Of a stretch of 64,000 nt of DNA, positions 24,399 to 42,292 are shown piece after piece (the stretch's first letter is position 1; every line of letters starts with the position of its first letter). The position numbers were made by a program, and so were the translations under genes. The notes under the pieces are model-generated. The model was not told the origin of the DNA and ran no database searches. It saw only the letters and a program-made list of their open reading frames with translations. Source of the stretch: Radicibacter daui (GTDB lineage: Bacteria; Pseudomonadota; Alphaproteobacteria; Radicibacterales; Radicibacteraceae); NCBI GenBank assembly GCA_030657355.1, contig CP131056.1:1133001-1197000 (forward strand). Direction: 5' to 3'.

Positions 24399-25274
24399 AT
24401 GAGGGGATTTGGACGCCTCGCTTTACGCATCTGGCTTTGCGCGGCGATTGCCCAGACCTTGGTGATAGTGGCGCTTTTTGCCGCCCTCATCAATATTCAC
24501 ACCCGTCAGGGCATGGACCTGCTGGAGACGCTGGTGGGCCGCGTGGTGGCGCCGGCGGCGGCACGCACCGCCCTTGGTTATCCGCTCGATACCCAGGCCC
24601 CGTTGCAGGGGCTGATTGAAAGCCTGGCCATCAGCGCCAAGCGCAATGCCGAAATCTATATCGTCGATGCCGACAATATCGTGATGTTCTCGACTGACGG
24701 CGAGAGCATCGGTTCGCCGGTGTCCGCCGCCTGGCAGCGCAACGATGCCCCGGCCGATGATTACTGGCAGGTGCTGACCGACCGCGAAATGGTGGTTGGC
24801 CGCGTCCTGCTGACACCGCTCGGCACCCGCGCCGGCGCCGTCATCGCCCGCGGCCTGCGCCGCGACGTGCTGGTGGATGTCGTCTCTGCTACCCAGCGCC
24901 CCGTCTTTATCGGCTTCGGCACGCTTGCCGTGCTGGCATTGCTGGCGCTACCGGCCGCCGGACTGGCGCTGCATCCGCTGGGCCTGCGCTTCGGCCGCAT
25001 GGCGCGGCTGCATGCGGCAACAGCCGAACTGGTGAGCGCCGGCAAGGTGCCGGACAAATCTTCAAGCCCCAGCGATCTCGCCGTCACGGCCGCCATCTGG
25101 GACATGGAACAGCTGGAGGCGGAGGCGGCGCGCATCGACAAGGTCGAAGGGGTGGCCGGTGCCACCGCCCAGCCGACTTGCGGCCCGGCAAAAGAGGACG
25201 CGGCAACAGCCGCCGCTGAAGCGCCGTCCGATCCAACGGCACAGGAAAAACCGGCCGAGGGAGGGGCTGCCTGA
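24399..25274 (+). CDS. two-TM membrane sensor protein of module A
   Basis: A 291-aa protein. Membrane helix at about 10-32 (LCAAIAQTLVIVALFAALI), an extracytoplasmic region of about 130 aa with PAS/Cache-like strands (EIYIVDADNIVMFSTDGESIGSP), a second membrane helix at about 165-190, then a cytoplasmic tail rich in Ala/Glu/Pro. Start ATG 24399 has GGGGGAGAG upstream. It is paralogous in layout and motifs to the protein at 61535-62479 (VLYST...VG). Overlaps the next gene by TGATG. Likely the signal-input subunit of a three-protein membrane module upstream of the T6SS genes; ligand unknown. Confidence 0.75.
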   Translation: MRGFGRLALRIWLCAAIAQTLVIVALFAALINIHTRQGMDLLETLVGRVVAPAAARTALGYPLDTQAPLQGLIESLAISAKRNAEIYIVDADNIVMFSTDGESIGSPVSAAWQRNDAPADDYWQVLTDREMVVGRVLLTPLGTRAGAVIARGLRRDVLVDVVSATQRPVFIGFGTLAVLALLALPAAGLALHPLGLRFGRMARLHAATAELVSAGKVPDKSSSPSDLAVTAAIWDMEQLEAEAARIDKVEGVAGATAQPTCGPAKEDAATAAAEAPSDPTAQEKPAEGGAA

Positions 25275-27154
25275 TGTCTCCCCTGCGTTCGCTCTGGCTG
25301 CTCATCATGGTCGGTGTCGTCGTCACCCTCATTCCCTGGGCGCTCACCGTCGCCTCGGCCACGCTGGTTGCCGGCAAGATGGTGCATGAGACGACCGCCA
25401 CCCGGCTCGATATCATCGGCAATTCGCTCTCCGGCGATATCGGGGCCTATCTTGATCTCGGCGTACCGCTGGATGAGGCGGTGGGCGCTTCCGATTTCCT
25501 CGGCGCCGATCTGGCGGCCTATCATTATATCCTCAGTGCCAGCCTGACGTCGGCGGACGGGCATGAGCTTGGCAGCTACAAGGCGCCCGGCAGCCCGGCC
25601 GGGGCAGAATTCATGGCGGCGGATATGCCGACCCAGAGCAAGAGCTTCCCCATCACCTCGGCCGGCAAGGTCGTCGGCCGGCTTGATCTGGTCTACCGGC
25701 AGCCCACTGTCAGCGGCGAGCTGGGGCAGGCGGGGCTCAGTTTCCTCATCGCCCTCGCCATCTCCCTTGTCTTCGGGCTGCAGTTCATCCTCTCCTCCTT
25801 CCGGCGCTCCGTGCTGTGCCCGATGCAGGTGGCCGATGCGCTGGAGGCTCGCATGAGCCAGCGCCGCTTCGATACCCGCGCCCCGGTGGATGAGCCCGGC
25901 CCGCTCTCGCTGGTGTTTGAGCAGATCAACCAGCTGCTGGTCGCCGTCAATGAGCGGGTTGCCACCTGCCGTTCCTACCTGTGGGAAGTGCGCGACTACA
26001 GCTACAACCCGGCTGCCGCCCCGGCCATGGAGCGGCTGGAGCAGCGCCTCGGCCTTATCGGCCGTTTTGCCCCTGACGGCATGCGCGAGCTGAAGCTCGA
26101 TCATGGCGATCTGCTGGCCGGCCCGGCCATCTTCCGCCTTGGTGCCCTGCTGGCCCTGCTGGCGACGCAGGCCTTTGCCACCGGGTTCGTTACCGCGCCT
26201 CATCTCCTCCTCATTCTGCTGGGCTCCGCCGCGGCTGCCTGCCTCATCCATGAGCTGTTCGGCTGGCTGCGCCTGTGGATCTTCGCACCGCTCGCACTCG
26301 CGGCGCTGATCGCGCTGCCCTGGCTGGGCGAGCCGCCCTCTGTTGCCGTTTGTCTCGGTGTCGGAACCTTCGCCGCCACTGCCTGCGCCCAGATGCTGGC
26401 GGCGCGCCATGTGGTGGCGCGGGCCGGTACCGCCTGGCACGGGCTTCTCGGGATCTTTGCCGGCCTTGGTATTGCCGTGCTGGCACAGCAGCTGCGTTTC
26501 CCGGCACTGGTCTGGGTCGCGGGTATCGCCGTTACCGGTGGTCTGGCCGCTCTCGGGCTGAGGAACACCCGCCTGCCGCGGGTACCGGCCGGCGAGACAC
26601 GGTCGATGACCGGCAAGCTGCTGGCACTCATCGAGCTGCTGCCGGCGCTGCTGTTCTTCGGCGGGCTTGGTGTCTGGCTGTCGCAAACCGGCCTCAGGCT
26701 GGCCTTCTCCTGGTCGCTTGAAGGCAGCGCCGGCTTGCTGATGGCGATCTGGCTTGCCGCCGGCATAGCGAGCCTTACTGCCAGCATCGTGCTGGTGCTC
26801 TTGCGGGGGGCGCTGGCCGCGCCGGTCATCTGGCTTGCCCTGCCGCTGGCGCTCTTCGGGCTCGGGGGGCTGTTCTGGTTCCCGATCGATCCGCTGGGGA
26901 CCGTGGTGGGCAGTGCGGCCATCATCGGCGCCGGGCTTCCTGTCGCCTTCGGCGTGATTGCCCGTGCCCGGGGCGGGGCCTTCTTCCCGTGGGCGACGGT
27001 GTGCCTTGCCGCCGGTGTGCTGACCACGCTGGACCCGCCGCGTCAGCCGGTGCCGGTCATCCTGTTTGCCGGTGCGGCGGCGGCGGCGCTGTTCCTCCTC
27101 ATCGGCGGCCTTGTCGTCCTTCTGCGCGAGCGCACCCTGCGGAGGGCCTCATGA
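25274..27154 (+). CDS. polytopic membrane protein: sensor + HAMP-like + degenerate MFS-like region
   Basis: A 626-aa protein. An N-terminal membrane helix (8-32) is followed by an extracytoplasmic domain to about 155, a membrane helix (about 157-177) and a HAMP-like linker (VADALEARMSQRRFDTRAP). From about residue 275 to the end there are ten to twelve hydrophobic helices. The same order occurs in the protein at 62476, where the polytopic part is a recognisable MFS transporter; here MFS motifs are largely eroded. Overlaps both neighbours (TGATG and ATGA). Probably a signal-transducing membrane protein that may no longer transport. Confidence 0.75.
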   Translation: MSPLRSLWLLIMVGVVVTLIPWALTVASATLVAGKMVHETTATRLDIIGNSLSGDIGAYLDLGVPLDEAVGASDFLGADLAAYHYILSASLTSADGHELGSYKAPGSPAGAEFMAADMPTQSKSFPITSAGKVVGRLDLVYRQPTVSGELGQAGLSFLIALAISLVFGLQFILSSFRRSVLCPMQVADALEARMSQRRFDTRAPVDEPGPLSLVFEQINQLLVAVNERVATCRSYLWEVRDYSYNPAAAPAMERLEQRLGLIGRFAPDGMRELKLDHGDLLAGPAIFRLGALLALLATQAFATGFVTAPHLLLILLGSAAAACLIHELFGWLRLWIFAPLALAALIALPWLGEPPSVAVCLGVGTFAATACAQMLAARHVVARAGTAWHGLLGIFAGLGIAVLAQQLRFPALVWVAGIAVTGGLAALGLRNTRLPRVPAGETRSMTGKLLALIELLPALLFFGGLGVWLSQTGLRLAFSWSLEGSAGLLMAIWLAAGIASLTASIVLVLLRGALAAPVIWLALPLALFGLGGLFWFPIDPLGTVVGSAAIIGAGLPVAFGVIARARGGAFFPWATVCLAAGVLTTLDPPRQPVPVILFAGAAAAALFLLIGGLVVLLRERTLRRAS

Positions 27155-29160
27155 GTATCGGGCGCCGCGTTATCCTGCTGTTCGTCATCTGCTCCTGCGC
27201 GGTGGCACTGGCCGCCATCGGTGTCACGGTCGTGCGCCGCGTGGTGGAAGATACCCTCACCACCGATGCCCATGAGCGGGCGCTGCAAAGCAGCTGGGCC
27301 ATTGCGCTCGACCGGCAAGCCGGCGCTGTCATCGATCTGGTGACCGCCCAGCTCGCCCGCCCCGACATCCAGCCTGCCGGTGTCCTTGCGACTCTGAGCG
27401 GCGTCGGGGTACGCAGCATCACCTTCTATGATGATCTGGCGCAGATGATCGGCGTATGGCCGGCAACCGAGCAGGTGGCGGATATTCCGGCCCGCCGTGT
27501 TGCCCAGGCCATCGCCGGCGGGCGCGGGTTCCATACGCTCGTTGCTTCCGGCGGCAGCATCTACATGGTGGCGGTCGGTCCGCTTCAGCGGCAGGGCGAC
27601 GGCAAGGGTGCCTTCGCCGCGAAAGTGGAACTCAGCCTGCCGCTGGCGGAAACGGTGGGCGCGCTCGGCGGTGCCGGGTATGTCATCGATCCCGATGGCA
27701 AGCTCTTGTCCTCCTATGGCGCCCTGCCGTGGGCCGAGGTGTCGGCGGACTTTGCCGGCCGGACCTCCAACGTCTTCGACCTGACGCACGATACCCAGCG
27801 CCTGCGCCTGCAATCCATCACCCTGCGCCAGCCCGGCGGTACCGCGCTCGGTTATCTCGTCGTGCTGCGGGATATCACCACCTATGACCGCGTGCTGAAT
27901 GTGATGGATCTCCTGTCCCTCACGGCCATCGTCGCGGTGTGCATTGCCGTGGTTGCTTTTGGCCGCTGGTTTGCCGCCGGCAGCCTCAGGCCGCTGGCGA
28001 CAGCCGCGGACGGGCTCAGCACGCTTGTTGCCGGCAACACCAATGTCGATGTGCCGGGCGCCGAACGGAATGATGAGGCCGGCCAGCTTGCCCGCGCGGT
28101 TGTTGCCTTCCGTGACCGGGTGCGCCAGTCGCGCCAGGGCGAGGCGCAGCGCGCCCGCCAGTGGTCGCGCCAGCAGGAATTCATTCGTGCGCAGATGATG
28201 CGGATGGCGGAAACCCTGTCCGCTGACGGTCGCCGTACGCTGGAAGAAGATCTGGCCCGGATAGAGGCGCTCGCCGTCGGTGGTCCGGATGGCAAGGAAG
28301 GCGGCAGCAAGGCGGGCGGCGATGCAGCGCTCACGGCGGCTGTCGAGGTGATGGCCCAGCGCGTCAGCGAGCAGCATCGCGAGCTGGACCGGCTGGTCAA
28401 CGAACTGCGCGCTGCGCTCGGCACCCGCACCGAGCTTTTCCAGCTCCAGCAGCAGATGGAAGTCGCCCGCTCCATGCAGCAGGCCATGCTGCCGCGCGGC
28501 CTGCTGCCCAACCCCCATATCGAGGTTAAGGGCCGCCTTGTCCCGGCTGCAGAGCTGGACGGCGCCTTCTTCGACTATTTCTGGATCGATGAGGAACGGC
28601 TGGGGCTGACCCTCGGTCAGCCGGCCGTGGGCGGCCTTGTCGGCGGTTTCCAGTCCGGCACCGCCCGCGCCTCGATGCGGGCGCTGCTGCTGGCCGGCCT
28701 TGATGCCGGCGAGGCGCTGACACGAACGCGTGCCGAGCTGCGGGCGGAAGAGAACGGGGAGGATTTTGCCCTCACCGCCGCCATCATCGAACCCGGCACC
28801 GGCAATCTGGTCTGGGCCTCGCATGCCATGGCGCCGCCGATAGCGGTGCGCCGCCTCGGCGATGCCGCCGAGCTCTCCGGCACTGCCATCCAGGATGTCG
28901 ATTATGACGGCGATGGCACCACGGACGAGCACCGTTTTGAGCTGCCGCGCCGCTCCGCCGTCATGTTCTATGCGCCGGGTGTGGCCCAGAATGTGGGGCC
29001 TGCGGTTGCCCCTGGCCGCCTGCTTTCCGGCCTGCGCGCGGCAGACGATATCTCCGTCGACAGCCTGCTGGCGGCGCTTCAGTCCGAAGGGCTGCTCGAT
29101 CCGGGTGCCGTCGGCAATGTCAGGGATGGCGTGTGCGTGATCGCACGTTTCCTCGCCTGA
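27151..29160 (+). CDS. HAMP/SpoIIE-like PPM protein, predicted pseudophosphatase
   Basis: A 669-aa membrane protein: membrane helix at 9-30, extracytoplasmic sensor domain to about 245, second membrane helix (about 252-275), HAMP (about 275-330), a long coiled coil (about 330-445), and a C-terminal SpoIIE/RsbU-like PPM domain beginning QQQMEVARSMQQAMLP. The metal-binding Asp of the three PPM motifs is missing in each: VGGD becomes LDGA (Ala472), GDVSGxG becomes GQPAVGG (Gln490) and DGVTE becomes PGVAQ (Pro609). The fold is kept (TAAIIEPGTGNLVWAS), so a non-catalytic binding or scaffold role is likely. Coupled by ATGA and TGATG overlaps to its neighbours. Confidence 0.82.
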   Translation: MSIGRRVILLFVICSCAVALAAIGVTVVRRVVEDTLTTDAHERALQSSWAIALDRQAGAVIDLVTAQLARPDIQPAGVLATLSGVGVRSITFYDDLAQMIGVWPATEQVADIPARRVAQAIAGGRGFHTLVASGGSIYMVAVGPLQRQGDGKGAFAAKVELSLPLAETVGALGGAGYVIDPDGKLLSSYGALPWAEVSADFAGRTSNVFDLTHDTQRLRLQSITLRQPGGTALGYLVVLRDITTYDRVLNVMDLLSLTAIVAVCIAVVAFGRWFAAGSLRPLATAADGLSTLVAGNTNVDVPGAERNDEAGQLARAVVAFRDRVRQSRQGEAQRARQWSRQQEFIRAQMMRMAETLSADGRRTLEEDLARIEALAVGGPDGKEGGSKAGGDAALTAAVEVMAQRVSEQHRELDRLVNELRAALGTRTELFQLQQQMEVARSMQQAMLPRGLLPNPHIEVKGRLVPAAELDGAFFDYFWIDEERLGLTLGQPAVGGLVGGFQSGTARASMRALLLAGLDAGEALTRTRAELRAEENGEDFALTAAIIEPGTGNLVWASHAMAPPIAVRRLGDAAELSGTAIQDVDYDGDGTTDEHRFELPRRSAVMFYAPGVAQNVGPAVAPGRLLSGLRAADDISVDSLLAALQSEGLLDPGAVGNVRDGVCVIARFLA

Positions 29161-29855
29161 TGTGCCGCCTGGTCCGCCATGGGGGACGCTGGGGCCGGGG
29201 CTTTTTCCTCTTGCTTTGCGCCGCCCTGCTGGGCCTCGGGCTGACAGCCCGGCCGGCACAGGCGGGCGATTGCCGCTCGCTGGCGGCCGTGGCCGAGCCT
29301 GAATTCGGCATTCCCGAAGGGCTGCTTCAGGCCATGGCGATGGTGGAAACCGGCATTTACGGCATGGCCTGGCCCTGGACCATCAATGCCGGCGGCAAGC
29401 CCTATTACATGCTGACCGAGGCGGACGCGCAGGAGCTCGCCCGCCGCGCCGTCGCCGTCTATGGCGATCAGGTCGCCATGGGCTGTATGCAGATTTACCT
29501 GCGCTGGCACGCACAGGAATTCCACGATCTGCAGGAGATACTGCAACCGGCCGCCAATGTGCGCTACGCTGCGGCCTATCTGGTCAGCCTGCATCAGCGT
29601 TACGGTTCCTGGGTCAGTGCCGTGCAGCACTATCACGCCTCAGACCCCACGGCGCAGCTCATCTATCTGTGCAAGGTCATCCGTACGCGCGCTTCGCTGG
29701 GCTTCCAGACCGTGAGTTTGGATACCGCCCGGGCCTGTGCCGGTGCGGCGCCGATCCCCGGAGCCATGGTGACCGCCACCCCCGGCTTGCCGGCCGGCGC
29801 CGCGCCGGACCCGGCCTCCGGCAACCAGCAGGGGGAGAATGGTCGTGGCCAGTAA
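29160..29855 (+). CDS. secreted lytic transglycosylase (SLT domain)
   Basis: A 231-aa protein with a signal peptide (hydrophobic core 15-30, cleavage after PAQA near residue 35) and a GH23-type lytic transglycosylase domain. The catalytic Glu63 is in MVETGIYG, with WPWTINAGGKPYYM and MGCMQIYLRWH as typical substrate-groove motifs. The C-terminal tail is Ala/Pro/Gly-rich. The start overlaps the previous stop (TGATG). In this T6SS locus it is well placed to open peptidoglycan for insertion of the trans-envelope complex (inference). Confidence 0.88.
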   Translation: MCRLVRHGGRWGRGFFLLLCAALLGLGLTARPAQAGDCRSLAAVAEPEFGIPEGLLQAMAMVETGIYGMAWPWTINAGGKPYYMLTEADAQELARRAVAVYGDQVAMGCMQIYLRWHAQEFHDLQEILQPAANVRYAAAYLVSLHQRYGSWVSAVQHYHASDPTAQLIYLCKVIRTRASLGFQTVSLDTARACAGAAPIPGAMVTATPGLPAGAAPDPASGNQQGENGRGQ

Positions 29856-30327
29856 TCGCCTGTTATGGACCCCGATAAGACCCCGCCGTTCGGTCGTTGC
29901 CCTGCTCGCGGTGTTTTCCCTTGGCCTGCCTGCGATCCTGCCCTTGCCGGTTGCGGCGCAGCTCTGCGGCCAGCCGTCCTTTGCCATGTCGCCGCCGGCG
30001 CTCAATTTCCGCACGCCGTCGCTGGTCACCCCCACGGTTAATTACCGTCTGCCCAGCCTGCGTCTCTCCACCCTGCCGGCGCTCGGCCCCAGCTTTCCGG
30101 CCCTCAACCTGCGCTCGCCGACCCTGCCGGCATTGCCCCAGGCAAGCTTCACCATGTCGCCCAGCTCGATGAATTTGCCGGCACCGCCGGGTCTGGCGGC
30201 GCTCAACCAGCTCGCCGGTCTGCCGGGCCAGCTGGCGAACCAGCTTTCCAGTCAACTCAACCGCCTGACCAACCTGCCGCCGCTGCCAACTCTCGCCCTC
30301 AGATGCAGCGGGTTGTGTTGCCGGTGA
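29839..30327 (+). CDS. secreted Pro/Leu/Ser-rich repeat protein, unknown function
   Basis: A 162-aa protein. N-terminal signal peptide (VVALLAVFSLGLPAILPLPVAAQ). The mature part is low-complexity with a recurring pattern of about 15-20 residues: PALNFRTPSL, VNYRLPSL, PALNLRSPTL. It ends with a Cys-containing tail (LRCSGLCCR). No family recognised. Start ATG 29839 overlaps the transglycosylase end in another frame. Its position between a transglycosylase and SPOR proteins suggests a periplasmic or cell-surface role. Confidence 0.6.
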   Translation: MVVASNRLLWTPIRPRRSVVALLAVFSLGLPAILPLPVAAQLCGQPSFAMSPPALNFRTPSLVTPTVNYRLPSLRLSTLPALGPSFPALNLRSPTLPALPQASFTMSPSSMNLPAPPGLAALNQLAGLPGQLANQLSSQLNRLTNLPPLPTLALRCSGLCCR

Positions 30328-30328: not shown

Positions 30329-30862
30329 GTGGACCATCTATATTTTGAAAGTCGCCGTCTTTTGAAAGTTGTCGCGATCATTATTGCAGCCGTTCTGGTC
30401 CTCGCGGCAGCCGGCGGGGCCGCATGGTACTTCCTGGGCGGCTCCGGCGGTGGAGACTCGGGTGTGCAGGCGGCTCCGAGTCCCGTTGAAAATCAGGCCG
30501 GTGTCACTAATCCTTCACCGGACAATGCGGAAACGGGCGATAAGTCGACAAAAGAAGCCCCGCCCCCTCCCCGAAGAGTCGAAGACGCCGCGAAGCCAGA
30601 AAACTGGCCAGTTTTCTCAATTGAACTGGCTACTTTCCGCAGTCTGGACAAGGCTCGTGAGTATCTGGCGGCCATTAGTCAGCGCGATATTGAAGCAGAA
30701 CTGGTGGAAACGGTGGATGCAGGGGGACGTGCATGGTACCACGTCAGGACTGGGAAGTTTGACGATCCGCGGCAGGCAGCAGCCCGGCTTCCGGACGTCG
30801 AAAGAAAGACTTCCGTCTACGGGGTAGTGGTAACCGAAATACCGGCTGCCGCTGCCAAGTGA
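30329..30862 (+). CDS. SPOR-domain membrane protein 1
   Basis: A 177-aa inner-membrane protein. One N-terminal membrane helix (about 13-36), a Pro/Ala/Gly-rich periplasmic linker with a PPPP stretch, and a C-terminal SPOR-type domain of about 75 aa (WPVFSIELATFRSLDKAREYL; WYHVRTGKFDDPRQAAARL). SPOR domains bind septal or denuded glycan strands. Start GTG 30329 (a TTG at 30362 is possible). Placed just upstream of TssJ-K-L-M, it probably anchors the T6SS or its remodelling enzyme to peptidoglycan. Confidence 0.78.
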   Translation: MDHLYFESRRLLKVVAIIIAAVLVLAAAGGAAWYFLGGSGGGDSGVQAAPSPVENQAGVTNPSPDNAETGDKSTKEAPPPPRRVEDAAKPENWPVFSIELATFRSLDKAREYLAAISQRDIEAELVETVDAGGRAWYHVRTGKFDDPRQAAARLPDVERKTSVYGVVVTEIPAAAAK

Positions 30863-30877: not shown

Positions 30878-31801
30878 TTGGGGGGCGAAGTGAGCAGGTT
30901 TTCGCTTGGGACCGGACAGGCAGTCGCTCTCATGGCAGGCGGTTTCATGATCGCCGCGCTGTCCTTTGCCTTTGGCGCTATCCTGTTTTGGTCCCCGGCT
31001 TCCAGCCAGTCTGCTTCCGGTTCAGCCGCCCAGGCAACGGCGGGCGGTCAGGTCGCCTCGGCGGACGGGGCGGAAGAGGGCGATAGCGGCCTTGTCGGCG
31101 CAGCGGGCCGCAAGGCTTCCGTCCAGTATGATTCCAGTGTCTACATCATGAAGAACAAGGCTGGCGACCTTTTGGGCGACAGCGCGGTGGACGCGACGAA
31201 AGAAGCGGTCGAGCCCGGGGTTGAAGCCGCCTCCCATGCGGTTGCCAGTGTGCTCCCGTCTTCCATTGCCCATTATGTCCCCTGGCTTGCCGGCGCCGCC
31301 CTCTACAAGGCGGAAGGCAATGCCAAGGAAAGCCTCGGCAACGTTGTCGAGGATAATTTTGAAGCGGCCGCAATGGCGGTGAAACCGGGCGGTGACGGTA
31401 GCGACGGTGGCAATGCCCCGGCGGCTTCCGGTTCTTCCGCGTCGGCCGGCAGGGTGGCGACGGGCGGGGCAGGGGCCCCTTCAGCCGTTTCCGGTTCCGT
31501 CCCCGGCACCGGCGGTGCTGTTGCTGGCGGAATGGTCACGCCTGCCGCCTGGGGTGGCGAGCGCTGGACGATCCGTCTCGGCCGCTTTGCCACGGCGGCC
31601 AATGCTGACACCTTTGCCGGCGAGCTGTCGCGCCGGGGTGTGCCAGCGCGGGTTGCCGTTGCTTCCGATGGCGGGCGTTACTGGTCTTTCGTCCAGTCCG
31701 GCAGTTACGAGGGCAGGGGCGCCGCCGAAATGGCGCTGCGCGACCTGCAGGCGCGGGGTTACGGTGGCTCGGTCGTCAGCGAAGGTGGGAGTGGGTTTTG
31801 A
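30878..31801 (+). CDS. SPOR-domain membrane protein 2
   Basis: A 307-aa protein. Single membrane helix at about 15-37 (ALMAGGFMIAALSFAFGAILF), a long Gly/Ala/Ser-rich periplasmic region, and a C-terminal SPOR domain from about 225 (WTIRLGRFATAANADTFAGEL; YWSFVQSGSYEGRGAAEMAL). Start TTG 30878 has GGAGG eight bases upstream; GTG 30890 with GGGGG is an alternative. Second SPOR protein of the T6SS locus and adjacent to the TssJ-like gene. Confidence 0.78.
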   Translation: MGGEVSRFSLGTGQAVALMAGGFMIAALSFAFGAILFWSPASSQSASGSAAQATAGGQVASADGAEEGDSGLVGAAGRKASVQYDSSVYIMKNKAGDLLGDSAVDATKEAVEPGVEAASHAVASVLPSSIAHYVPWLAGAALYKAEGNAKESLGNVVEDNFEAAAMAVKPGGDGSDGGNAPAASGSSASAGRVATGGAGAPSAVSGSVPGTGGAVAGGMVTPAAWGGERWTIRLGRFATAANADTFAGELSRRGVPARVAVASDGGRYWSFVQSGSYEGRGAAEMALRDLQARGYGGSVVSEGGSGF

Positions 31802-32265
31802 GCGTCTCCCCCCGTCTCATAAAGGCCGCACGCCGGAGCGTCGCGGTGGCCGCGCTAGTCCTCCTCGCCAGCTGTGCAACCAAGGATGCTCCGACGCTCA
31901 CCTTTGAGAGTGTCTCGCTGACGGCGGTTGAGGCTGCCAATGACAACAGCCCCGTTGCCGTTGATCTCCTGCTGGTGCGCGACCAGGCGCTTGTCGACAA
32001 ATTGCTGGCGCTGACCGCTGCACAATGGTTCCAGCAGCGCGCCCAGTTCGAGGCGGATTATCCCAAGGATTTGAGCGTCTATGGCTGGGAGATCGTCCCC
32101 GGCCAGACGCTGGAGGACAAGATACCTTCAACCTCGCCCGCCTGGGCGGGCATCGTTTTCACCAGCTACCACACCGCCGGTGCCCACCGCCTGCGTGTCT
32201 TCCCGGCCGAGAAGGGACCGAGTGTCTCCCTGCGTCTGGAAGCGGTGGATGCGGTCGTAAAATAA
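31798..32265 (+). CDS. tssJ: TssJ-like outer-membrane lipoprotein
   Basis: A 155-aa lipoprotein with lipobox LLASC (Cys26). The mature part has the TssJ-type two-layer beta pattern: NDNSPVAVDLLLVRD (compare the SPVxVRLxQL segment of TssJ), FQQRAQFEADYP and the conserved W-EIVPGQTLE turn. Starts at TTG 31798, overlapping the previous stop. It directly precedes tssK-L-M, where TssJ contacts the periplasmic TssM domain. Sequence is divergent, so the identity rests on features plus position. Confidence 0.75.
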   Translation: MSVSPRLIKAARRSVAVAALVLLASCATKDAPTLTFESVSLTAVEAANDNSPVAVDLLLVRDQALVDKLLALTAAQWFQQRAQFEADYPKDLSVYGWEIVPGQTLEDKIPSTSPAWAGIVFTSYHTAGAHRLRVFPAEKGPSVSLRLEAVDAVVK

Positions 32266-32326: not shown

Positions 32327-33658
32327 GTGAGCACTGTCAGGGACATACCCGATCCGATCGACTGGCATGAGGGCATGCTGCTCGCCCCGCAGCACTTCCA
32401 GCAGGAAGCGCTGCGTGCCAGCACGGCCCTTTCTGTGCGCCTCGATCAGGTCGCGGCTTTTCCCTGGGGCATTACCCATCTCCTGCTCGACCGCGTAGCG
32501 CTGGTCTCCGGCATGGTGCGCGTGCTGGAACTGGAAGGTGTGATGCCCGACGGGCTTACCGTCTGGCACGACAATACCAGCCCCGAGCCGCTGGAGCTTG
32601 ATATCGGCCCGATGGGCGATCCGCTCGCCCAGGCGCCCATCACCATCTTCATCACCGTGCCCGCCGCCCGCTCGGGCAGCTGGGGGGGCGCGCAGCGCTG
32701 GCGCTCCAGCGAAGGCAAGCCGGTGGCGGACGAAAACAGCGGCGAGGAAATTCCCGTGCCGCGCCTGCGCCCGCGCCTTGCGCTCACCGCCATCCCCACG
32801 CCGGGCGATATGCCGCCGCAGCGTCTCGTCTCGCTGCCCATCGCGCGCATTACCTTCGCCAATGACAGCTTTGCGCTGGTGGAAAACTACGCCCCGCCGG
32901 CACTCGCCGTGCCGGCCAACTCGCCCGTCGGGCGCCTGTGCGCCGATATTGCCCGCCGCGTGCGTGAAAAGGCCATGCTGCTGGCCGAGCGCATCGTTGA
33001 TGGCGGTGTTGCTGCGCCGGGCAGCGGCGACGTGAATGGTGAAATCCGCGCCCTGGTCGTGTCGCTGCCGGTGCTGGAAGCCCAGCTTGCCGTCGAATGC
33101 GTGCACCCCTTCATTCTTTACCAGAGCATGTGTGCGCTGCTGGGCCACGTCTCCTATCTTTCTACCGGCAAGGTACCGCCCAAGCTCTCGCGCTACGATC
33201 ATTACGATCCCTACGCCGCCTTCAGCGAAATCCAGGACTATATCGTCCGCATGGTCGACCGCGTGCGCGAAGCGGTGGAGCCTATCCGCTTCCGCTTCGA
33301 AAGTGGCATGTTCGGCCTTGAGATGACCAGGGACTGGATCGCCGGCCGTCTGTTCATCGGCGTGCGCGGCCCGGCCGCCATGTCGGCAGCGGAGATCGTT
33401 TCCTGGATCGAGAATGCCGTCATCGCCTCGCGCAGCCAACTGGAGCGGCTGGCCACCCTGCGTGTGAGGGGCCTTGCCCGCACGGTGGTAGAAACCGACA
33501 GCGAGATCGGCCTTGTGGTGCCGCGCGGCACCGTGCTCTTCCGGATCGAAAAGGATGAGGAACTGCTTCTGGCCGGCGAGCCGCTGGAAGTGTGGAACCC
33601 GGACAATCTGGGCAGCCGCTCGCGGCCCGTCGATATCTCGCTCTACGTCGCGCCATGA
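32327..33658 (+). CDS. tssK: T6SS baseplate protein TssK
   Basis: A 443-aa protein with the TssK N-terminal hallmark (VRDIPDPIDWHEGMLLAPQHFQQE), the shoulder-domain region and the neck/head part (GMFGLEMTRDWIAGRLFIGVRG). Length is normal. TssK trimers link the baseplate (TssE-F-G-VgrG) to the TssL-M membrane complex in the cytoplasm. Start GTG 32327; the end overlaps tssL by ATGA. Confidence 0.95.
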   Translation: MSTVRDIPDPIDWHEGMLLAPQHFQQEALRASTALSVRLDQVAAFPWGITHLLLDRVALVSGMVRVLELEGVMPDGLTVWHDNTSPEPLELDIGPMGDPLAQAPITIFITVPAARSGSWGGAQRWRSSEGKPVADENSGEEIPVPRLRPRLALTAIPTPGDMPPQRLVSLPIARITFANDSFALVENYAPPALAVPANSPVGRLCADIARRVREKAMLLAERIVDGGVAAPGSGDVNGEIRALVVSLPVLEAQLAVECVHPFILYQSMCALLGHVSYLSTGKVPPKLSRYDHYDPYAAFSEIQDYIVRMVDRVREAVEPIRFRFESGMFGLEMTRDWIAGRLFIGVRGPAAMSAAEIVSWIENAVIASRSQLERLATLRVRGLARTVVETDSEIGLVVPRGTVLFRIEKDEELLLAGEPLEVWNPDNLGSRSRPVDISLYVAP

Positions 33659-34557
33659 CCAGCGAGATGGAAATGCTCCCGCGCCGGGACATCCTCGACA
33701 GCTTCCTGGCGTTTGTGGCGGAGCTTAACCATCACCGCATGGCGGTTGGTGCGCGGGCGCGCGCCGTGCCGCCCGCCGGTCAGCTCCGGGCCGGCGGCCC
33801 GGTGGCGACGGCGGATGAGCAGATCATGCCGGCCTTCCTGCTGGAGGCGCCGGTGGGTGTCACCGCTCAGGCCGACCAGCCGGATGAGCCGGCCCCCAGT
33901 GCCCGCCCCGATCCCGAAATTATCCTGGAGCGCCTGCAGCAGTTCCTGGAAGCCGATGCGCGCAACTTCTCCCGCAAGGCGACGGAGATGATGCTCGCCC
34001 AGTATCGCGAGGCGCAGTACGCCATGGTGGCGCTGGCCGACGACGTCTTCCTGCACGAGATCGACTGGTATGGCCGCGACGTATGGCGCAGCAACCATCT
34101 CGAGCAGCGCATCTTCCAGTCCCGCCTTGGCGGAGATCGCATTTTCGAGCGCATGGACAAGCTGCTCGCCTCCGGCGACCGTCGTCTGCTCCAGCTCGCT
34201 TCCATCTATCTCTGCATCCTGTCGCTCGGCTTCCGTGGCCGTCACCGGGGCCCGCGTGGTGAGATGATGGTGCGCAGCTACGCGCAGCGCCTCTTCGAGA
34301 TGATTTCCGGCCGCGACCCGCTGCTGCTGGGTGATTTTGCCACCACCGTGCGCCCGCTGGTGCCGTCGGCCTATGCCCATACCGTCATTGGCGACAGTGC
34401 CCGGCGCGGGCGTTTCCAGCTGCGCTGGCCGTGGATTGCCGCGCTTGTCGTCGTCGGCTGGCTGGTGCTGGGACAGGCTGCGTGGATGTGGTTCTCCCAA
34501 GATACCTCCAACGCGGTGCATGAAGTTTTGCGCGTGGCCGGGGGAGGCGCCCCATGA
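33655..34557 (+). CDS. tssL: T6SS membrane protein TssL (DotU/IcmH family), no OmpA-like domain
   Basis: A 300-aa protein. The cytoplasmic DotU domain (about 85-245) has FSRKATEMMLAQYREAQYAMVALADDVFLH and ASIYLCILSLGFRGRH. One C-terminal membrane helix (about 262-285, PWIAALVVVGWLVLGQAAWMW) precedes a short periplasmic tail. There is no OmpA-type peptidoglycan-binding extension, so cell-wall anchoring must come from another protein, possibly the SPOR proteins upstream. ATGA overlaps on both sides. Confidence 0.93.
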   Translation: MTSEMEMLPRRDILDSFLAFVAELNHHRMAVGARARAVPPAGQLRAGGPVATADEQIMPAFLLEAPVGVTAQADQPDEPAPSARPDPEIILERLQQFLEADARNFSRKATEMMLAQYREAQYAMVALADDVFLHEIDWYGRDVWRSNHLEQRIFQSRLGGDRIFERMDKLLASGDRRLLQLASIYLCILSLGFRGRHRGPRGEMMVRSYAQRLFEMISGRDPLLLGDFATTVRPLVPSAYAHTVIGDSARRGRFQLRWPWIAALVVVGWLVLGQAAWMWFSQDTSNAVHEVLRVAGGGAP

Positions 34558-37500
34558 TGGAAGCGCTCTTCACCTGGCTGGCTGGTGACCAGTATATCGT
34601 GCTCGCCATCATCGGCGTGCTCATGCTGTTGCTGGTGCTGGTCATGGTTGTCGTGCTGGTGCGCGCCAACAAGGCCGCCCGTGCACTGCCGGAAGACGCA
34701 CCGCCGCCGCCGGTCGAACTCGACGTCATCTCCGTAACGCCGGAGGACATTGCCGCCCAGAAGCAGCAGGAAGTGCGTTCTCTGCGCCGCCTGATGCGCG
34801 ACGGGTTCTCGGCCACGAAGGAGTCCTTCGCCCGCAACCCCTATCTCATGCCCTGGGTGCTGCGGGTCGGTGTCGGCAGCAACGGCGATGGCGGCCTGCT
34901 GGCGGCCAGCGAACAGATCCGTCCGCCGCTTGGCGATCCAGGCCGCGATGCGCTCAGCTGGCATTTCTATGAACGCGGCGTCATCCTCAATGCCGGCCGC
35001 TCCGACCTCTGGTCGCAGATCCTCTCCTTCGTCAGCCGCAAGCGCCCGTCGCTGCCGCTTGACGGCATCCTGCTGACGGTCTCCGTCGCTGACCTTGCCG
35101 ACAGCCGCCGCGCCAATGCGCTGGGCTCGGAAGCCTATGCGCTGCTGTGGCAGGCCCAGCGCACGCTCGGTTTTGCCGTGCCGGTCTATGTCGTCGTCAC
35201 CGGCACCGAAAACCTGCCAGGCTTCGAGGCGCTGGAGGGCATGCTGCCGCCGGGCTTCCGCGATGGCATGCTCGGCTGGTCTTTCCCCTATCCCATGGAT
35301 ACCGCCTTCTCCGGCGATTATGTCGGGGAGGCACTGTCGGCCATCGAGCAGGGCGTGCTCTCCATCACCTTCGAGGCCTTCGGCTCGGTGATGGAAGGGG
35401 CGCGCGGCGCCGAACTGCTGCGCATCCGCGAGAACCTGACCGATCTGGAAGAGCCGCTGAAGGCTTTCCTCACCACCGCCTTCCGCCGTACCGCTTTCCA
35501 TGAGGCGAATTTCTTCCGCGGCGTCTATTTCATCGCCCAGCCCGATCCGGATCGCGGCGCTTCCTTCGCGCATGATCTCATCGAGCAGAAGGTGTTTGCC
35601 GAAAGCGGGCTTTCCCGCCCGCTGCGCGGTGCCCGGGGTCGTGTGTGGCGCCGTTTTGCCTGGCCGGCGGTGGCACTCGTGCTGCTGATGGCGGGGGCCG
35701 CCTCCATCGCCGCCTCGCTCGGGCGGCTTCATGCCTATCAGGCAGCGGCCGTGCCGGCACTGCATGCGCTGGCAAGCGATGTGTCGGCCTTTGGCGGCCT
35801 GCGCACCAAACCGGTCGATGCGGCGGCAAGCTCCGATGCCGCCATCCGTTACCTCAACACCGCCAATGTTCTGGCGCGGGCGGAGCCGTTCCTTTACCTG
35901 CCCGCTTCCTGGGTCGAGCGCGATCCCTACGGTGCCCGTGCTGCGATGCGCGCGGGCTGGGAAAATGTGGTGATGGTCGCCCTCAAGGCGCATATCGAGG
36001 ACAAGCTGCGCGATCTCTCCAATTCCGGTGAGACCGACCTGCCGCCCGATATTGCCCTGCCGCGTTTTCTCAGCCGTCTTGCCGAGGCGGAAGGTTTTGC
36101 CCTTGCCTATAACCAGCTGAGCGCCGGTACTCCGCCAGCTTCGACACGCGAACTCATCGACTATGCGCTGAACGTCAATGTGCCGGCGCAGACCATGGGT
36201 CATCTGGTGCGCTGGGATGTGATCGGCCCGGGCTCCGCGCCCTACAGCAATCCCAATCTCCATATCGATCTCACCCAGTTCCAGCCGGCCGCGCAGGCCA
36301 CCTATCTGCAGTTCGCCGATGGCTATATGCGCATGCTGGCGGCAGGTGGGCAGGCGGGTCTTCGCTTGCAGCTCGTCTCCAAGGAACTGAAGCTGCTGGT
36401 CACCGGCCGCAAGGCCGGCAAGAGCGCGACCGCCAGCTTCATGGAAGTCTCCGCCGGCCTTGATGAGGCGCGCTCGCTGCTCGCTTCCGGCCAGCCCTCC
36501 TGGCTCGGCGCTGCCGGCCCGGTGGTCCCGGCCGATATCCAGCTGATGATGGATGCGGCGGCAAAGTCCGATCTGCTCGGCCCGCGTTCGGCGCGCGATG
36601 TCCAGGCTCTCGCAAGCCGTCGGTTTGAGGAGGTGAAGGGTCAGGTGCTGGCGGTAGATAGCCCCATCGGCCCGCTCGTCACCCGCACCGAAGGCGTCAG
36701 CGCTGCGCTCTCCTCTCCGGCGGAATCACTGCGCCAGACGCTCGCGCAGTGGCTGCAGCGCAGCTTCATGCAGCCGGCGGATACCACCACGGCCAGCGCC
36801 GCGCCGCTTTCCGGTTATGGCTGGGATTCCGCGTCGCTGGAAAGCGTGCCGCCGCTCTTTGACGACTACATGCTGTTCGAGGCCAAGGAGATGGCACAGC
36901 TGCCGCCCTCTCTCCGGCCCGCCATGCGCTCGGCAGCGCAGGAAAGCCTGCATTCCAGCGTTACCCTCGCCATCGATCGTGCTTCCACCGGTATCGATGC
37001 GCGCGCCGTCGCCGCCACCAACTCGCTGGCCCAACTCGGCGGTTATGCCTCCTCGCTGCGGGTGGCCGTGCCCGTCATCGAGCAGACCATCCAGTCCTAT
37101 CTCCAGATCGGCATGAGCCAGCCGGCGGACGAGGTGCGTAACCGCGTCTCCAGCCTTGCCGGCGCCATCGTCGAGCGGGTGGACCAGATGCTGGCCGATG
37201 ACCAGCTCTATCGCCCGAGCACGCGCTATCTTGCCAACTGGCAGGGAGAGGCGATTTCTCCGGCGGGCATGTTCGACCAGCCGGATCTGCCGGCTCTGCG
37301 CCAGCGCCTCATCCAGTGGCGTCTTGAGATCACCACGCTTGCCCGCGATACCGCCGGTCCGATGCTGGAAGTTCTCTCGCGCCCGCTTCTGCAAACCCCG
37401 AGGGCCACGGCCGTTGCCGCCAAGTGGCTTCAGATCAGCGCCGCGCTTGATGCCTATGATGGCGCCCGCCCCAATGCCAGCCTGTTGCAGTTGGAAAACT

Positions 37501-38675
37501 TCATCAGCACCGACATGGCTGCCATCAGCGCGGAAAATTGCGCGGGGGACCCCACGGCACCGGGCATGGGCGGCGATTTCTTCGCCGATGCGCTGGAATC
37601 GTTGAAGCGTGACATCCGCGGGCGTTGTTACCAGCTGAAGGACGAGCGCCTCGTCACTGCCTATCAGAGCATCAAGCAGATCTTCGACCAGCGTCTGGCC
37701 GGCCATATTCCCTTTACCTATGCCGGCGGCAATGCCGCTCCGGCGGGGCGGGAAGATGTGGCGGCCTTCTATGCCGCCTTCGATGCCAGCAAGGATGTGC
37801 TGACGACGGCCATTCCAGCAGCGGCGCTCACCCGCCAGGCCTGGCAGCCGCCGGCAGCCTTCATCTCCGCCATGGCGACGGCGCGGCCCTTCCTCATGCA
37901 GGTTGCGGCGCCGGAGGCCGGCACCAGCCTCATGGTCAATCCGTCCTTCCGTGCCAACCGCGCGGGCGAGGTCGGCGGCAGCGACATCATCGAATGGTCA
38001 TTCGGTGCAGGTTCGAAGCAGGTCTCCAGCTTCACCGGCGGCGATGTCGCCTGGGCGCCCGGAGAAACGGCTTCCATCTCACTGCGCTGGGCCCGCAACG
38101 GCCCGGTCGTGCCGGTACGGGTGCTGGGCTCCACGCTTGGCACCATAGACGGGCTTACCGCGCGTTACTCGGCTGACGGGCTGTGGTCGCTCTATTCGCT
38201 GATGCGGGGCCTGACAGCGCCGCCGGGGGATGCTGCGGATGCGCAGGCAGTCAGTTCCGGTACGCTGCTGCGCTTCGATGTCGCCATCGGTTCGGCAGAT
38301 GCGCCGTCTGTCGACGGTACGGCAACGGCAAGCCTGCCGGCCCGCGTCTATGCCCGCCTTGAGCTGAGCCGCTCCAAGACAGAGCAGGGCCAGACGACGA
38401 AGGAAAAGATTGCCTTCCCGGGGCTGCCGGCCTTTGCGCCGGAGCTGCCGGTTGCTTCCAGCCATATGGGGGTGAGCCAGGGGCTTGGCCAAGGGCTTGG
38501 CATGAGCCTGCCGCAGCTGCCGGGCATGGTTGCGCCGGGCGCGGCGATGCCGGTGCCGCTTCTCCAGCAGGGCACCTCCTACACGCCCTCCCAGCTCGAT
38601 CGCGAGATGCTTGGCCTTTCCCTGCCGCGTTTCACCCCCGCAACCCTGACCGCCAACACGCCGGGAGACCTCTGA
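34554..38675 (+). CDS. tssM: T6SS membrane protein TssM (IcmF/VasK family), Walker A lost
   Basis: A 1373-aa protein. N-terminal membrane helix at about 14-37, cytoplasmic GTPase-like domain (about 90-360), a further membrane helix near 372-392, then a long periplasmic region with the IcmF-related and C-terminal VasK domains that bind TssJ. At the P-loop position the sequence is GVGSNGDGG (106-114) instead of GxxGxGKT, so nucleotide binding is unlikely. The DGILLTVSVADL and YVVVTGTENLPGFE (NKxD-like position) segments are retained structurally. Confidence 0.95.
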   Translation: MMEALFTWLAGDQYIVLAIIGVLMLLLVLVMVVVLVRANKAARALPEDAPPPPVELDVISVTPEDIAAQKQQEVRSLRRLMRDGFSATKESFARNPYLMPWVLRVGVGSNGDGGLLAASEQIRPPLGDPGRDALSWHFYERGVILNAGRSDLWSQILSFVSRKRPSLPLDGILLTVSVADLADSRRANALGSEAYALLWQAQRTLGFAVPVYVVVTGTENLPGFEALEGMLPPGFRDGMLGWSFPYPMDTAFSGDYVGEALSAIEQGVLSITFEAFGSVMEGARGAELLRIRENLTDLEEPLKAFLTTAFRRTAFHEANFFRGVYFIAQPDPDRGASFAHDLIEQKVFAESGLSRPLRGARGRVWRRFAWPAVALVLLMAGAASIAASLGRLHAYQAAAVPALHALASDVSAFGGLRTKPVDAAASSDAAIRYLNTANVLARAEPFLYLPASWVERDPYGARAAMRAGWENVVMVALKAHIEDKLRDLSNSGETDLPPDIALPRFLSRLAEAEGFALAYNQLSAGTPPASTRELIDYALNVNVPAQTMGHLVRWDVIGPGSAPYSNPNLHIDLTQFQPAAQATYLQFADGYMRMLAAGGQAGLRLQLVSKELKLLVTGRKAGKSATASFMEVSAGLDEARSLLASGQPSWLGAAGPVVPADIQLMMDAAAKSDLLGPRSARDVQALASRRFEEVKGQVLAVDSPIGPLVTRTEGVSAALSSPAESLRQTLAQWLQRSFMQPADTTTASAAPLSGYGWDSASLESVPPLFDDYMLFEAKEMAQLPPSLRPAMRSAAQESLHSSVTLAIDRASTGIDARAVAATNSLAQLGGYASSLRVAVPVIEQTIQSYLQIGMSQPADEVRNRVSSLAGAIVERVDQMLADDQLYRPSTRYLANWQGEAISPAGMFDQPDLPALRQRLIQWRLEITTLARDTAGPMLEVLSRPLLQTPRATAVAAKWLQISAALDAYDGARPNASLLQLENFISTDMAAISAENCAGDPTAPGMGGDFFADALESLKRDIRGRCYQLKDERLVTAYQSIKQIFDQRLAGHIPFTYAGGNAAPAGREDVAAFYAAFDASKDVLTTAIPAAALTRQAWQPPAAFISAMATARPFLMQVAAPEAGTSLMVNPSFRANRAGEVGGSDIIEWSFGAGSKQVSSFTGGDVAWAPGETASISLRWARNGPVVPVRVLGSTLGTIDGLTARYSADGLWSLYSLMRGLTAPPGDAADAQAVSSGTLLRFDVAIGSADAPSVDGTATASLPARVYARLELSRSKTEQGQTTKEKIAFPGLPAFAPELPVASSHMGVSQGLGQGLGMSLPQLPGMVAPGAAMPVPLLQQGTSYTPSQLDREMLGLSLPRFTPATLTANTPGDL

Positions 38676-38679
38676 TCCC

Positions 38680-39981
38680 ATGAGCGCGCAAGCTCGCCTC
38701 GACGCCATATACCGCGCCCTCGGCATCAAGCCCGAGCGTATCCTCGCGCCGCTGGCGGAGGGTGAGGGCGCCGGCGTCGACATGCGCTACACGCCGGAGT
38801 TCGACGAACTGGCGGAGATGCGGCGCGAGGACAGCGACGACGATCAGGGCATCTGGAAGACGGCGCCGAAGAAGGCGGACTGGAAGGCGGTTGCCCGCCA
38901 GTGCGCCACGCTGCTCTCCACCCGCACGCATGACCTGCAGATCGCCGTCTGGCTGTTGCAGGCCATGATCCGCCTGCAGGGCTTCGGCGGCCTTGCCGCC
39001 GGCTGCGACCTGCTGGGCCGGCTTTGCCGCGAGTTCTGGCCGGTGTTGTGGCCGAAGCTCGATGGCGACGATATGGAATCGCGCCTTGCCCCGTTCTTCT
39101 GGGCCGACCGGCATCTGACCATCGAGCTGCTGCAGGTTGCCGTCACCGATACGGCGGATGAGGCCCCGCAGGGCATCAACTTCCAGCGCATCGTCAAGGG
39201 CCGGCAACTGGTGCAACTCGCCACCAACAATGCCCGCGCCTATGCCGAGGCGATTTCGGAAGGCGAGCTGTCGCCGGAAGATATCGAGGCGATCATTGCC
39301 GAGACGCCGGATGAGTTCTTCGTCTCCCTGCATGAGGATCTGGCGCTCGCCCGGCAAAAGCTCGCCGAGCTGATCTCCATTCTCGATGGCGTTGCCGGCA
39401 TGGATGCGCCGAGCCTTTCCAGCATCGGCCGCACATTGGGCGAGATCGGCGCCTATCTGACCGGTGTACTCACGGCCCGGGATATCGAGGTCGAGACTGT
39501 CTCTTCGACGGCCTCCGCTGACGCGCAGACGGATGACGATGACGATCCCTTTGCGCTGTCGCAGGGTGAGGACGACATGACCGATGCGGATAGCGATGAC
39601 AGTGGCGAAGACGACGATCCCTTTGCCATGGACGAATCGGCGCAGGCTGTACCGTATGAAGAGGTGCCGGCACCGACTCCGGCCCGTACGGCTGGCCGGT
39701 CCGGCGTCTTTGAGCTGCCGTCCATTTCTTCCCGCCGCGAGGCTTACCGGCTGCTCGATCACGCCGCCAACTGGCTGATCGACCACGAGCCGCATAGCCC
39801 GGTGCCCTTCATGGTCAAGCGCGCCGTCTCCTGGGAGGGGGCGAGCCTGCGCACCGTGCTGACAGAGCTGATGTCGCGCGGGGCGGATGCCGACACCATC
39901 ATGGAATTTCTTGCGATTGACGAGTCTGGAAAGCCGGCCGGAAGTGCCGTCCGAAAGACTGGCCGATTATTCGAGGAATAG
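38680..39981 (+). CDS. tssA: T6SS protein TssA with acidic DPFA-containing linker
   Basis: A 433-aa protein. The N-terminal ImpA domain (about 1-260) includes WKAVARQCATLLSTRTHDLQ, REFWPVLWPKLDGDD and RLAPFFWADR. An acidic linker (about 275-325) carries two copies of a DDDPFA motif (residues 285-292 and 311-316). A small C-terminal helical domain (about 345-425) has REAYRLLDHAANWLIDHEPHSPVPFMVKRA. TssA primes or caps sheath assembly. The DPFA motif recurs 25 times (23 DPFA, 2 DPFG) in the protein at 51410-53050, suggesting a shared binding partner. Confidence 0.92.
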   Translation: MSAQARLDAIYRALGIKPERILAPLAEGEGAGVDMRYTPEFDELAEMRREDSDDDQGIWKTAPKKADWKAVARQCATLLSTRTHDLQIAVWLLQAMIRLQGFGGLAAGCDLLGRLCREFWPVLWPKLDGDDMESRLAPFFWADRHLTIELLQVAVTDTADEAPQGINFQRIVKGRQLVQLATNNARAYAEAISEGELSPEDIEAIIAETPDEFFVSLHEDLALARQKLAELISILDGVAGMDAPSLSSIGRTLGEIGAYLTGVLTARDIEVETVSSTASADAQTDDDDDPFALSQGEDDMTDADSDDSGEDDDPFAMDESAQAVPYEEVPAPTPARTAGRSGVFELPSISSRREAYRLLDHAANWLIDHEPHSPVPFMVKRAVSWEGASLRTVLTELMSRGADADTIMEFLAIDESGKPAGSAVRKTGRLFEE

Positions 39982-40000
39982 CGCAAAACGAGAATGCGCT
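39980..40000 (+). terminator. weak hairpin after tssA
   Basis: AGCGCA (39980-39985) pairs with TGCGCT (39995-40000), starting at the tssA stop; a TTTT occurs about 15 bases later. Probably a partial terminator dividing the T6SS locus into two transcription units. Confidence 0.4.
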
Positions 40001-40148
40001 TGAAGATATTCAGTAATTTTGGGAGCTTTTTCATACGTCATTAATGAGATTTCCACTATCGGTATGGTGGCTTATTTCGTCGGCGCCAGTCGTGGCTGGT
40101 CACTAACAGTGCAAATAACCTGCACGCATTGAATTGGGGAGCTCGAGA
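40001..40148 (+). promoter_or_regulatory. AT-rich promoter region of the tssB-tssC-hcp unit
   Basis: The only long AT-rich gap inside the T6SS core. It contains the perfect 10-bp palindrome TCATTAATGA (40038-40047) and ends in the GGGGAG RBS of tssB. A sigma-54-like GG/GC pair (40098-40112) has an 11-base instead of a 10-base gap and was not accepted. Confidence 0.45.
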
Positions 40149-40679: not shown

Positions 40680-40723
40680 TGCCCCGGCATCGTTGACGCC
40701 CATTCTGAGGAAAGGTGACTACC

Positions 40724-42196: not shown

Positions 42197-42219
42197 AGCG
42201 CCCGACACTTCAGCGCCTC

Positions 42220-42252: not shown

Positions 42253-42292
42253 AACCGGCGATCCGGAACGGTTGAATAGCGGAGTCAAATAA

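Follow-up and report, generated by a model that had tools for sequence, protein, structure and literature searches.

A sensor cassette with a degenerate SpoIIE domain in a type VI secretion operon of Radicibacter daui, and a portable relative beside it

Introduction

What is the role of two similarly arranged sets of membrane sensor genes that flank a type VI secretion system (T6SS)? The question is raised by a stretch of 64,000 nucleotides (the window; C1:1133001-1197000) in the 5.06 Mb genome of Radicibacter daui, where a T6SS gene cluster lies between module A (genes A1, A2 and A3) and module B (B1 and B2, with B3 just beyond the window). An earlier note, made from the window alone, had paired A1 with B1 and A2 with B2 by their order and motif layout, and had suggested that they belong to an undescribed signalling or transport system tied to the T6SS. 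We compared the two modules with each other and with their relatives, reading also the sequence beyond position 64000. On balance, we lean towards the view that modules A and B are versions of one receptor cassette, and that module A is a non-catalytic adaptor through which a ligand or the state of the envelope controls the T6SS.

Results

The sensor parts of the two modules are distantly related

The four genes lie as the earlier note had described them, and overlapping starts and stops indicate translational coupling among the genes of module A and among those of module B (Table 1). Compared as single sequences by BLASTP, the proteins resemble each other only weakly (A1 and B1, E = 0.003; A2 and B2, E = 0.04); such values are near noise, and we dropped them as sole proof of paralogy in favour of profiles. 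Profiles built from relatives settle the matter. The A1 and B1 families match in profile-profile comparison at 99.3% (E = 8e-21) over 204 columns, and the Cache-HAMP halves of the A2 and B2 families at 99.7% (E = 2e-25) over 272 columns; independently of the latter result, the A2 profile retrieves B2 of the window itself with E = 3e-8. At the level of sequence this is decisive: A1 and B1, and the Cache-HAMP halves of A2 and B2, are related pairs, distantly so, and the pairing that the earlier note had drawn from layout stands for these parts.

The part common to A2 and B2 is a transmembrane (TM) helix, a Cache domain, a second TM helix and a HAMP domain. The predicted fold of A1 is a single Cache domain, with WalK, CitA and DcuS as the best-matching crystal structures (Z 12-13), and residues ~10-160 of A2 are likewise predicted to form a single Cache domain (Z ~12 to WalK). 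The assignment of Cache domains to B1 and B2 rests on their profile homology to A1 and A2; a profile search of the PDB with B1 gave chance matches only. In a tree of the Cache-HAMP region, the A2 clade stands beside a Magnetospirillum SpoIIE clade, with support of 88 and a long branch. A recent duplication of A from B inside this genome is unsupported, since the tree groups A2 with SpoIIE-linked copies.

The polytopic halves of A2 and B2 show no detectable kinship

Beyond the HAMP domain the shared layout ends. B2 scores 124 bits with PF07690 (MFS_1, major facilitator superfamily), whose cut-off is 33, and its relatives keep the loop motif A, [DE]R.G.[RK], together with many invariant charged residues. 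Judged by these features, B2 is an intact MFS domain fused to Cache-HAMP, and may have transport activity. For the corresponding half of A2, 12 helices are predicted at a pLDDT of ~50 (AlphaFold, with no relatives supplied for that half), and comparison with the MFS half of B2 by hhalign returned a probability of 0.1%, that is, no detectable kinship. Among 12 family members we found no convincing Pfam family and no MFS match for this half, so that its identification as an MFS domain lacks support from either method; our fold searches with A2 covered its sensor half only. A motif directly after the HAMP domain of A2, VN.R....YL.EVRD.S.N, is conserved throughout the family. The pairing proposed earlier thus holds for the Cache sensors and the Cache-HAMP halves, and finds no detectable counterpart in the polytopic halves.

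A3 is a predicted pseudophosphatase

As the earlier note had stated, copy A continues with a HAMP/SpoIIE-like protein, A3, and a lytic transglycosylase, A4. The SpoIIE domain of A3 scores 26.8 bits in a genome scan, against a cut-off of 25, and 22.7 bits when the protein is searched alone. We aligned A3 proteins from the window, two Azospirillum loci and 14 more loci (among them Caenispirillum and a number of A. brasilense copies that are nearly identical) and compared them with 24 module-linked SpoIIE relatives. In the latter, GGD (AGD in three of them), DxSGKG (or similar sequences with the Asp in place) and [TS]DG are all kept. A3 proteins have DG[SA] in place of GGD. Their second motif has Gln throughout at the position of the Asp, TDG is missing wherever that stretch is aligned, and only one Asp remains of the last motif, DD[IL]T. 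All three metal-ligand motifs are lost in every aligned A3 copy. The closest solved PP2C structure, a Pseudomonas response regulator (3es2/3eq2), has Asp at these same three positions, where the A3 of the window has Ala, Gln and Pro.

Elsewhere in the same genome, two intact SpoIIE response regulators adjoin a HATPase_c_2 gene, and hence A3 is specifically the degenerate one. We recognised no STAS or HATPase_c_2 gene among the genes scanned beside module A. From its residues, A3 is a catalytically dead SpoIIE/PP2C protein, a predicted pseudophosphatase, and the retention of the dead domain across Azospirillum, Caenispirillum and the window argues for a role in binding.

Module A is found within T6SS clusters

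The gene order A1-A2-A3, lytic transglycosylase (SLT), SPOR, SPOR, TssJ, followed by TssK in stretches that reach so far, recurs outside the window in Azospirillum sp. B510, several replicons of the A. brasilense group, further Azospirillum genomes and Caenispirillum bisanense. In all, we found the module A operon in T6SS clusters at 15 further loci, one of which ends after A2 at a contig end, and at two Azospirillum loci; owing to near-identical Azospirillum copies, these counts are not independent. Matches to A2 occur in 11 of 23 genomes searched; in 10 of the 11, the contig that carries A2 also has TssC, at a distance of 4-15 kb (the remaining genome, G446, was unchecked). Within a sample of 387 genomes of the class, a full-length match to A2 was found in the window's genome only. 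Module A was thus found only within T6SS clusters in everything examined, a range that is narrow and comprises Azospirillum, Caenispirillum and the window, and for copy A the proposed tie to the T6SS is borne out by A2 genes in the same order in T6SS clusters outside the window. Homology, architecture, operon context and synteny, and the loss of catalytic residues are all read directly from the sequences.

In this type of T6SS, TssJ is preceded by a conserved lytic transglycosylase and two conserved SPOR proteins (30329-31801 for the SPOR pair). TssL (33592) has no peptidoglycan-binding extension recognised by Pfam, and the SPOR proteins may act as a cell-wall anchor for the T6SS. Among the T6SS cluster genes scanned we recognised no kinase, PpkA, PppA, Fha or TagF, which leaves room for another route of control; a search of the genome for TagF was made with no positive control.

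The T6SS cluster of A. brasilense Sp7, which holds module A, is described as fructose-inducible and as killing E. coli and Agrobacterium, and Tss proteins of this cluster appear in the accompanying table of induced proteins (PMC11837500). Because a T6SS that carries module A is functional in Sp7, the idea of a switch can be tested there.

Module B is a portable receptor cassette

Among 85,000 species genomes scanned, we found 145 relatives of B2, and 80 loci were read. B1 lies beside B2 in 72 of the 80 and B3 in 78; the B1-B2-B3 triad recurs across about 80 proteobacterial loci. B3, the gene that follows B2 beyond position 64000, encodes a secreted periplasmic protein of the ABC_sub_bind family and not a HAMP-SpoIIE protein, the possibility that the earlier note had raised; a GNAT gene comes next. 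B3 resembles TrpX and the binding proteins 3lkv and 6hni. As to a cognate permease and ATPase of an ABC importer, the genes considered were its immediate neighbours, B2 before it and the GNAT gene after it.

At least two core T6SS genes were present in the flank read at 24 of the 80 loci, from Vibrio, Photobacterium, Marinomonas, Marinobacterium, Oceanospirillum, Donghicola, Azospirillum and others. At many of these, B1-B2-B3 adjoins VgrG, TssA, TssB and TssC, and in Vibrio, Photobacterium and Marinomonas the module shares the strand of VgrG and lies immediately upstream of it. At 25 of the 80 loci there is an A3-like gene close by; nearly all such genes encode a SpoIIE phosphatase, mostly of the active type by its motifs. 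A STAS gene accompanies 12 of these 25 and none of the other 55. Where at least 20 kb could be read (53 loci), 23 are linked to a T6SS, 17 to an A3-like gene and none to both, so that the two linkages are mutually exclusive (Fisher p = 4e-6, uncorrected for kinship). On the Cache-HAMP tree, linkage to a T6SS needs five changes, at least four of which fall on well-supported branches.

As many as 18 of 50 genomes that carry module B lack TssC, which rules out module B as a T6SS-only module. The alphaproteobacterial sample likewise gave no enrichment at the level of genomes (T6SS in 5 of 19 genomes with module B and in 69 of 387 overall, p = 0.35), and on one A. brasilense replicon module B lies ~550 kb from the T6SS. 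Given the genomes without a T6SS and the lack of enrichment, we conclude that module B is portable rather than T6SS-specific: a receptor cassette repeatedly placed beside T6SSs, and not a T6SS component. The earlier note had named commonness in genomes without a T6SS as grounds for refuting its reading, and for copy B these grounds partly apply. For copy B, then, the tie proposed earlier survives as frequent adjacency and not as dependence; the suggestion that the modules might export something along with the T6SS found no support.

Several individual loci deserve mention. At two of them (L152, 9311-14160; L067, 4003-8840) there is an A-like triad divergent from module B, with the same sensor architecture and a weak MFS domain. 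In the A3-like partner at L152, an adenylate/guanylate cyclase domain recognised by Pfam replaces SpoIIE; the partner at L067 is likened to this cyclase type by a near-identical start and equal length only. On a plasmid of Nitratidesulfovibrio vulgaris (L013, 7006-13091), an ABC_sub_bind gene and a 1012-aa MFS fusion lie near a gene for a type III secretion chaperone, and the cassette may here be paired with yet another secretion system. The SpoIIE protein of a Magnetospirillum cassette (L049, 13793-16729) runs on into a HATPase_c_2-like kinase region, with STAS next to it, and this locus is apparently a complete partner switch. A protein of ~350 aa encoded between PAAR and TssA at L026, L032, L037 and similar T6SS loci (cluster 17) has by eye the look of a RelA/SpoT-type domain and is possibly a T6SS effector. 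Downstream of module B at L002 (5872-7560, minus strand) lies a gene for a 563-aa protein with no Pfam match.

Other genes of the window

The response regulator and kinase pair at 55425-59050 stands between the T6SS and module B. Homologues with 36-38% identity lie divergent beside B1 in Vibrio sp. THAF190c, and similar matches adjoin module B in V. maritimus, V. fortis and Vibrio sp. D404a. The divergent trio of hcp-like genes adjoins module B both in the window and in Caenispirillum bisanense (L014, 7-9 kb); one of the three (60655-61371) has a long insert rich in Lys and Glu. Between VgrG and TssE, at 51410-53050, lies a gene whose product has an HTH_23-like N-terminus followed by a long tail of low complexity, and a protein of this kind adjoins module B in Azospirillum (L009, 11975-13039; L011, 4710-5924).

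Table 1. Genes of modules A and B and of the T6SS region between them; positions are those of the window, continued past its end at 64000
Feature	Coordinates	Strand	Description	Basis or remark
A1	24399..25274	+	Two-TM membrane protein, one periplasmic Cache domain, short cytoplasmic tail	TM prediction, kinship to B1, Cache fold
A2	25274..27154	+	TM-Cache-TM-HAMP, then ~12 predicted TM helices	No recognised family for the helices
A3	27151..29160	+	TM-periplasmic sensor-TM-HAMP-coiled coil-SpoIIE (PP2C-like); predicted pseudophosphatase	Lacks three catalytic metal-ligand motifs
A4	29133..29855	+	Lytic transglycosylase (SLT)	Next gene of module A operon, conserved
A5	29839..30327	+	Short, exported-looking protein	No family
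A6	30329..30862	+	SPOR-domain protein, membrane-anchored
A7	30878..31801	+	SPOR-domain protein	Second of two
TssJ-like lipoprotein	31798..32265	+	Opens T6SS core after module A	Position and synteny; no Pfam match
T6SS core	32327..50456	+	TssK, TssL, TssM, TssA, TssB, TssC, Hcp, TssF, TssG, ClpV, VgrG
TssE	53086-53628			Part of T6SS core
Response regulator	55425..56999	+	DUF3369-HD-GYP (cyclic di-GMP phosphodiesterase type)	Homologue adjoins module B in Vibrio
PAS histidine kinase	56996..59050	+	Partner of DUF3369-HD-GYP regulator	Homologue adjoins module B in Vibrio
Three hcp-like genes	59531..61371	-		Between PAS kinase and module B
B1	61535..62479	+	Two-TM single-Cache membrane protein	Relative of A1
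B2	62476..64596	+	TM-Cache-TM-HAMP-MFS fusion, 706 aa	Window part ends at 64000
B3	64593-65645		PF04392 (ABC_sub_bind) secreted periplasmic solute-binding protein	3' of B2
GNAT gene	65751-66305			3' of B3

Discussion

That copy A has kept its sensors and lost the residues of its enzyme domain suggests a non-enzymatic switch for the T6SS, and module A is most likely a receptor that has been turned to this use. The core of the cassette would be a Cache membrane protein and a Cache-HAMP protein with a polytopic domain after the HAMP. In its usual form, that of module B, the polytopic part is an MFS carrier-like domain, and a dedicated secreted solute-binding protein follows, which would capture a small solute and hand it to the Cache/MFS receptor, whose occupancy would shift the state of the HAMP domain. 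The output in many bacteria would be a HAMP-SpoIIE phosphatase, often with STAS, as in partner switching; elsewhere the neighbours are T6SS genes. Copy A would have been incorporated into one type of T6SS operon (that of Azospirillum, Caenispirillum and the lineage of the window), retaining its periplasmic sensors, its HAMP domains and a strongly conserved cytoplasmic linker, with a polytopic domain that is not recognisable as MFS and a SpoIIE domain whose metal ligands are lost. A ligand or the state of the envelope may then be sensed by A1 and A2 through their Cache domains and by A3 through its periplasmic region, and the HAMP domains would relay the signal. The A2 linker with its post-HAMP motif and the pseudo-PP2C domain of A3 would contact a partner in a signal-dependent manner, either a cytoplasmic part of the T6SS or a regulator, and this contact would license or hold back assembly. 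The lytic transglycosylase and SPOR proteins would open and bind peptidoglycan, preparing it near TssJ-TssL-TssM. In a bolder version, which we put forward tentatively and regard as somewhat improbable, there is a receptor family (Cache partner, Cache-HAMP-MFS protein and binding protein) with varied outputs, the T6SS among them, and its diverged Azospirillum/Caenispirillum copy is a catalytically dead scaffold, gated by a ligand, which with the SLT and SPOR proteins directly licenses the assembly of the T6SS membrane complex.

Some observations weigh against our account of the two modules. Ligand sensing, partner binding and control of T6SS assembly or firing by module A are steps that we infer. 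The 12-TM half of A2 may not be a decayed MFS at all but a domain of other origin. The placement of the A2 clade hangs on moderate support and a long branch, and module B occurs in the 18 genomes without TssC noted above. In A. brasilense Sp7, Tss proteins of the cluster are among the fructose-induced proteins (PMC11837500), and we saw no module A proteins among them.

Could module B be an independent receptor or uptake system that borders the T6SS by chance, with only module A belonging to it? We take this possibility seriously and nevertheless think it rather unlikely. Its occurrence without TssC, the lack of genome-level enrichment, its distance from the T6SS on the A. brasilense replicon and its place beside SpoIIE-STAS genes elsewhere all agree with such independence; chance sits less well with adjacency in 23 of 53 loci on several separate branches, or with the same-strand position immediately upstream of VgrG in Vibrio, Photobacterium and Marinomonas. 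Module B may instead be mainly a nutrient importer, its TrpX-like binding protein supplying the MFS domain with a solute that is perhaps an aromatic amino acid, and Cache-HAMP regulating transport rather than signalling outward. The MFS motifs and invariant charged residues kept by B2 fit an importer, as does the likeness of B3 to TrpX, 3lkv and 6hni, yet two Cache domains and a HAMP are signalling parts and SpoIIE and STAS genes recur as neighbours, which makes this explanation unlikely.

For module A, the question is whether it senses anything. It lies in an operon with a lytic transglycosylase and two SPOR proteins upstream of TssJ-TssM, and the SpoIIE domain of A3 appears dead, as would be expected of an accessory that serves the structure or assembly of the T6SS envelope complex by remodelling peptidoglycan or by anchoring; periplasmic sensor-type regions kept in three proteins and HAMP-type converters kept in two make a part with no real sensing quite unlikely. 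It is very unlikely that A3 is still an active phosphatase by way of a non-standard site, or that it acts on the separate partner-switching locus of the genome. The homology of the domain is conserved, one Asp of the last motif is retained, and a HATPase_c_2 protein and two intact SpoIIE response regulators are available; against this, the metal-ligand motifs are lost from all aligned A3 proteins, with Gln throughout for one Asp.

The cassette combines known kinds of parts, namely Cache-HAMP receptors, transporter-receptor fusions and SpoIIE outputs; what is striking is a conserved, predicted pseudophosphatase receptor in a T6SS operon. In SpoIIE/RsbU-type partner switching (SpoIIE, STAS, HATPase_c_2), as in relatives of module B, a motif-intact HAMP-SpoIIE protein is often found with STAS near it; A3 differs in its missing catalytic metal ligands, and module A in having no recognised STAS or HATPase gene among its scanned neighbours. 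E. coli RssB is a catalytically inactive PP2C protein that acts as an adaptor, and is a precedent for a dead PP2C domain. In RssB-type proteins, as in A3, a PP2C-like fold ends a signalling protein, but A3 is a membrane receptor with a sensor and a HAMP domain, and its closest solved homologue keeps its Asp residues. Control of the T6SS by the threonine phosphorylation pathway (TPP; PpkA, PppA, Fha, TagQRST) likewise carries an envelope signal to the T6SS, and PppA is also of the PP2C family; it differs from the window in the components that we failed to recognise among the scanned cluster genes.

The nearest concept for B2 is the SLC5/STAC histidine kinases (CbrA, CrbS, RpuS; PMC9100948), in which a transporter-family domain is likewise fused to a signalling module. 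The cassette has MFS in place of SLC5, and Cache and HAMP in place of STAC; its fusion carries no kinase, and it has in addition a Cache partner encoded separately and a binding protein of its own. At the left junction of VflT6SS1 in Vibrio fluvialis and V. furnissii, an ABC-type periplasmic component and an MFS transporter have been reported (PMC5371669), which match B3 and B2 as we see them in V. furnissii; they are given there as flank only, the sensor domains, B1 and the conserved cassette being undescribed in that paper. A literature search of limited coverage, on HAMP-MFS fusions and on T6SSs with SpoIIE or SPOR proteins, returned nothing on the cassette.

Triggers of T6SS assembly are known for few lineages. 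Here, a conserved and unnamed three-gene receptor unit lies within a T6SS operon, of a type that works in A. brasilense Sp7 according to the data cited above (PMC11837500). If our reading is true, the route of the signal would be unlike the kinase and phosphatase route of the TPP, because its output domain would be a dead phosphatase. Elsewhere, the cassette is a portable receptor in which a transporter domain and a binding protein come together with partner switching, and which current annotation masks as 'MFS transporter' and 'ABC transporter substrate-binding protein'.

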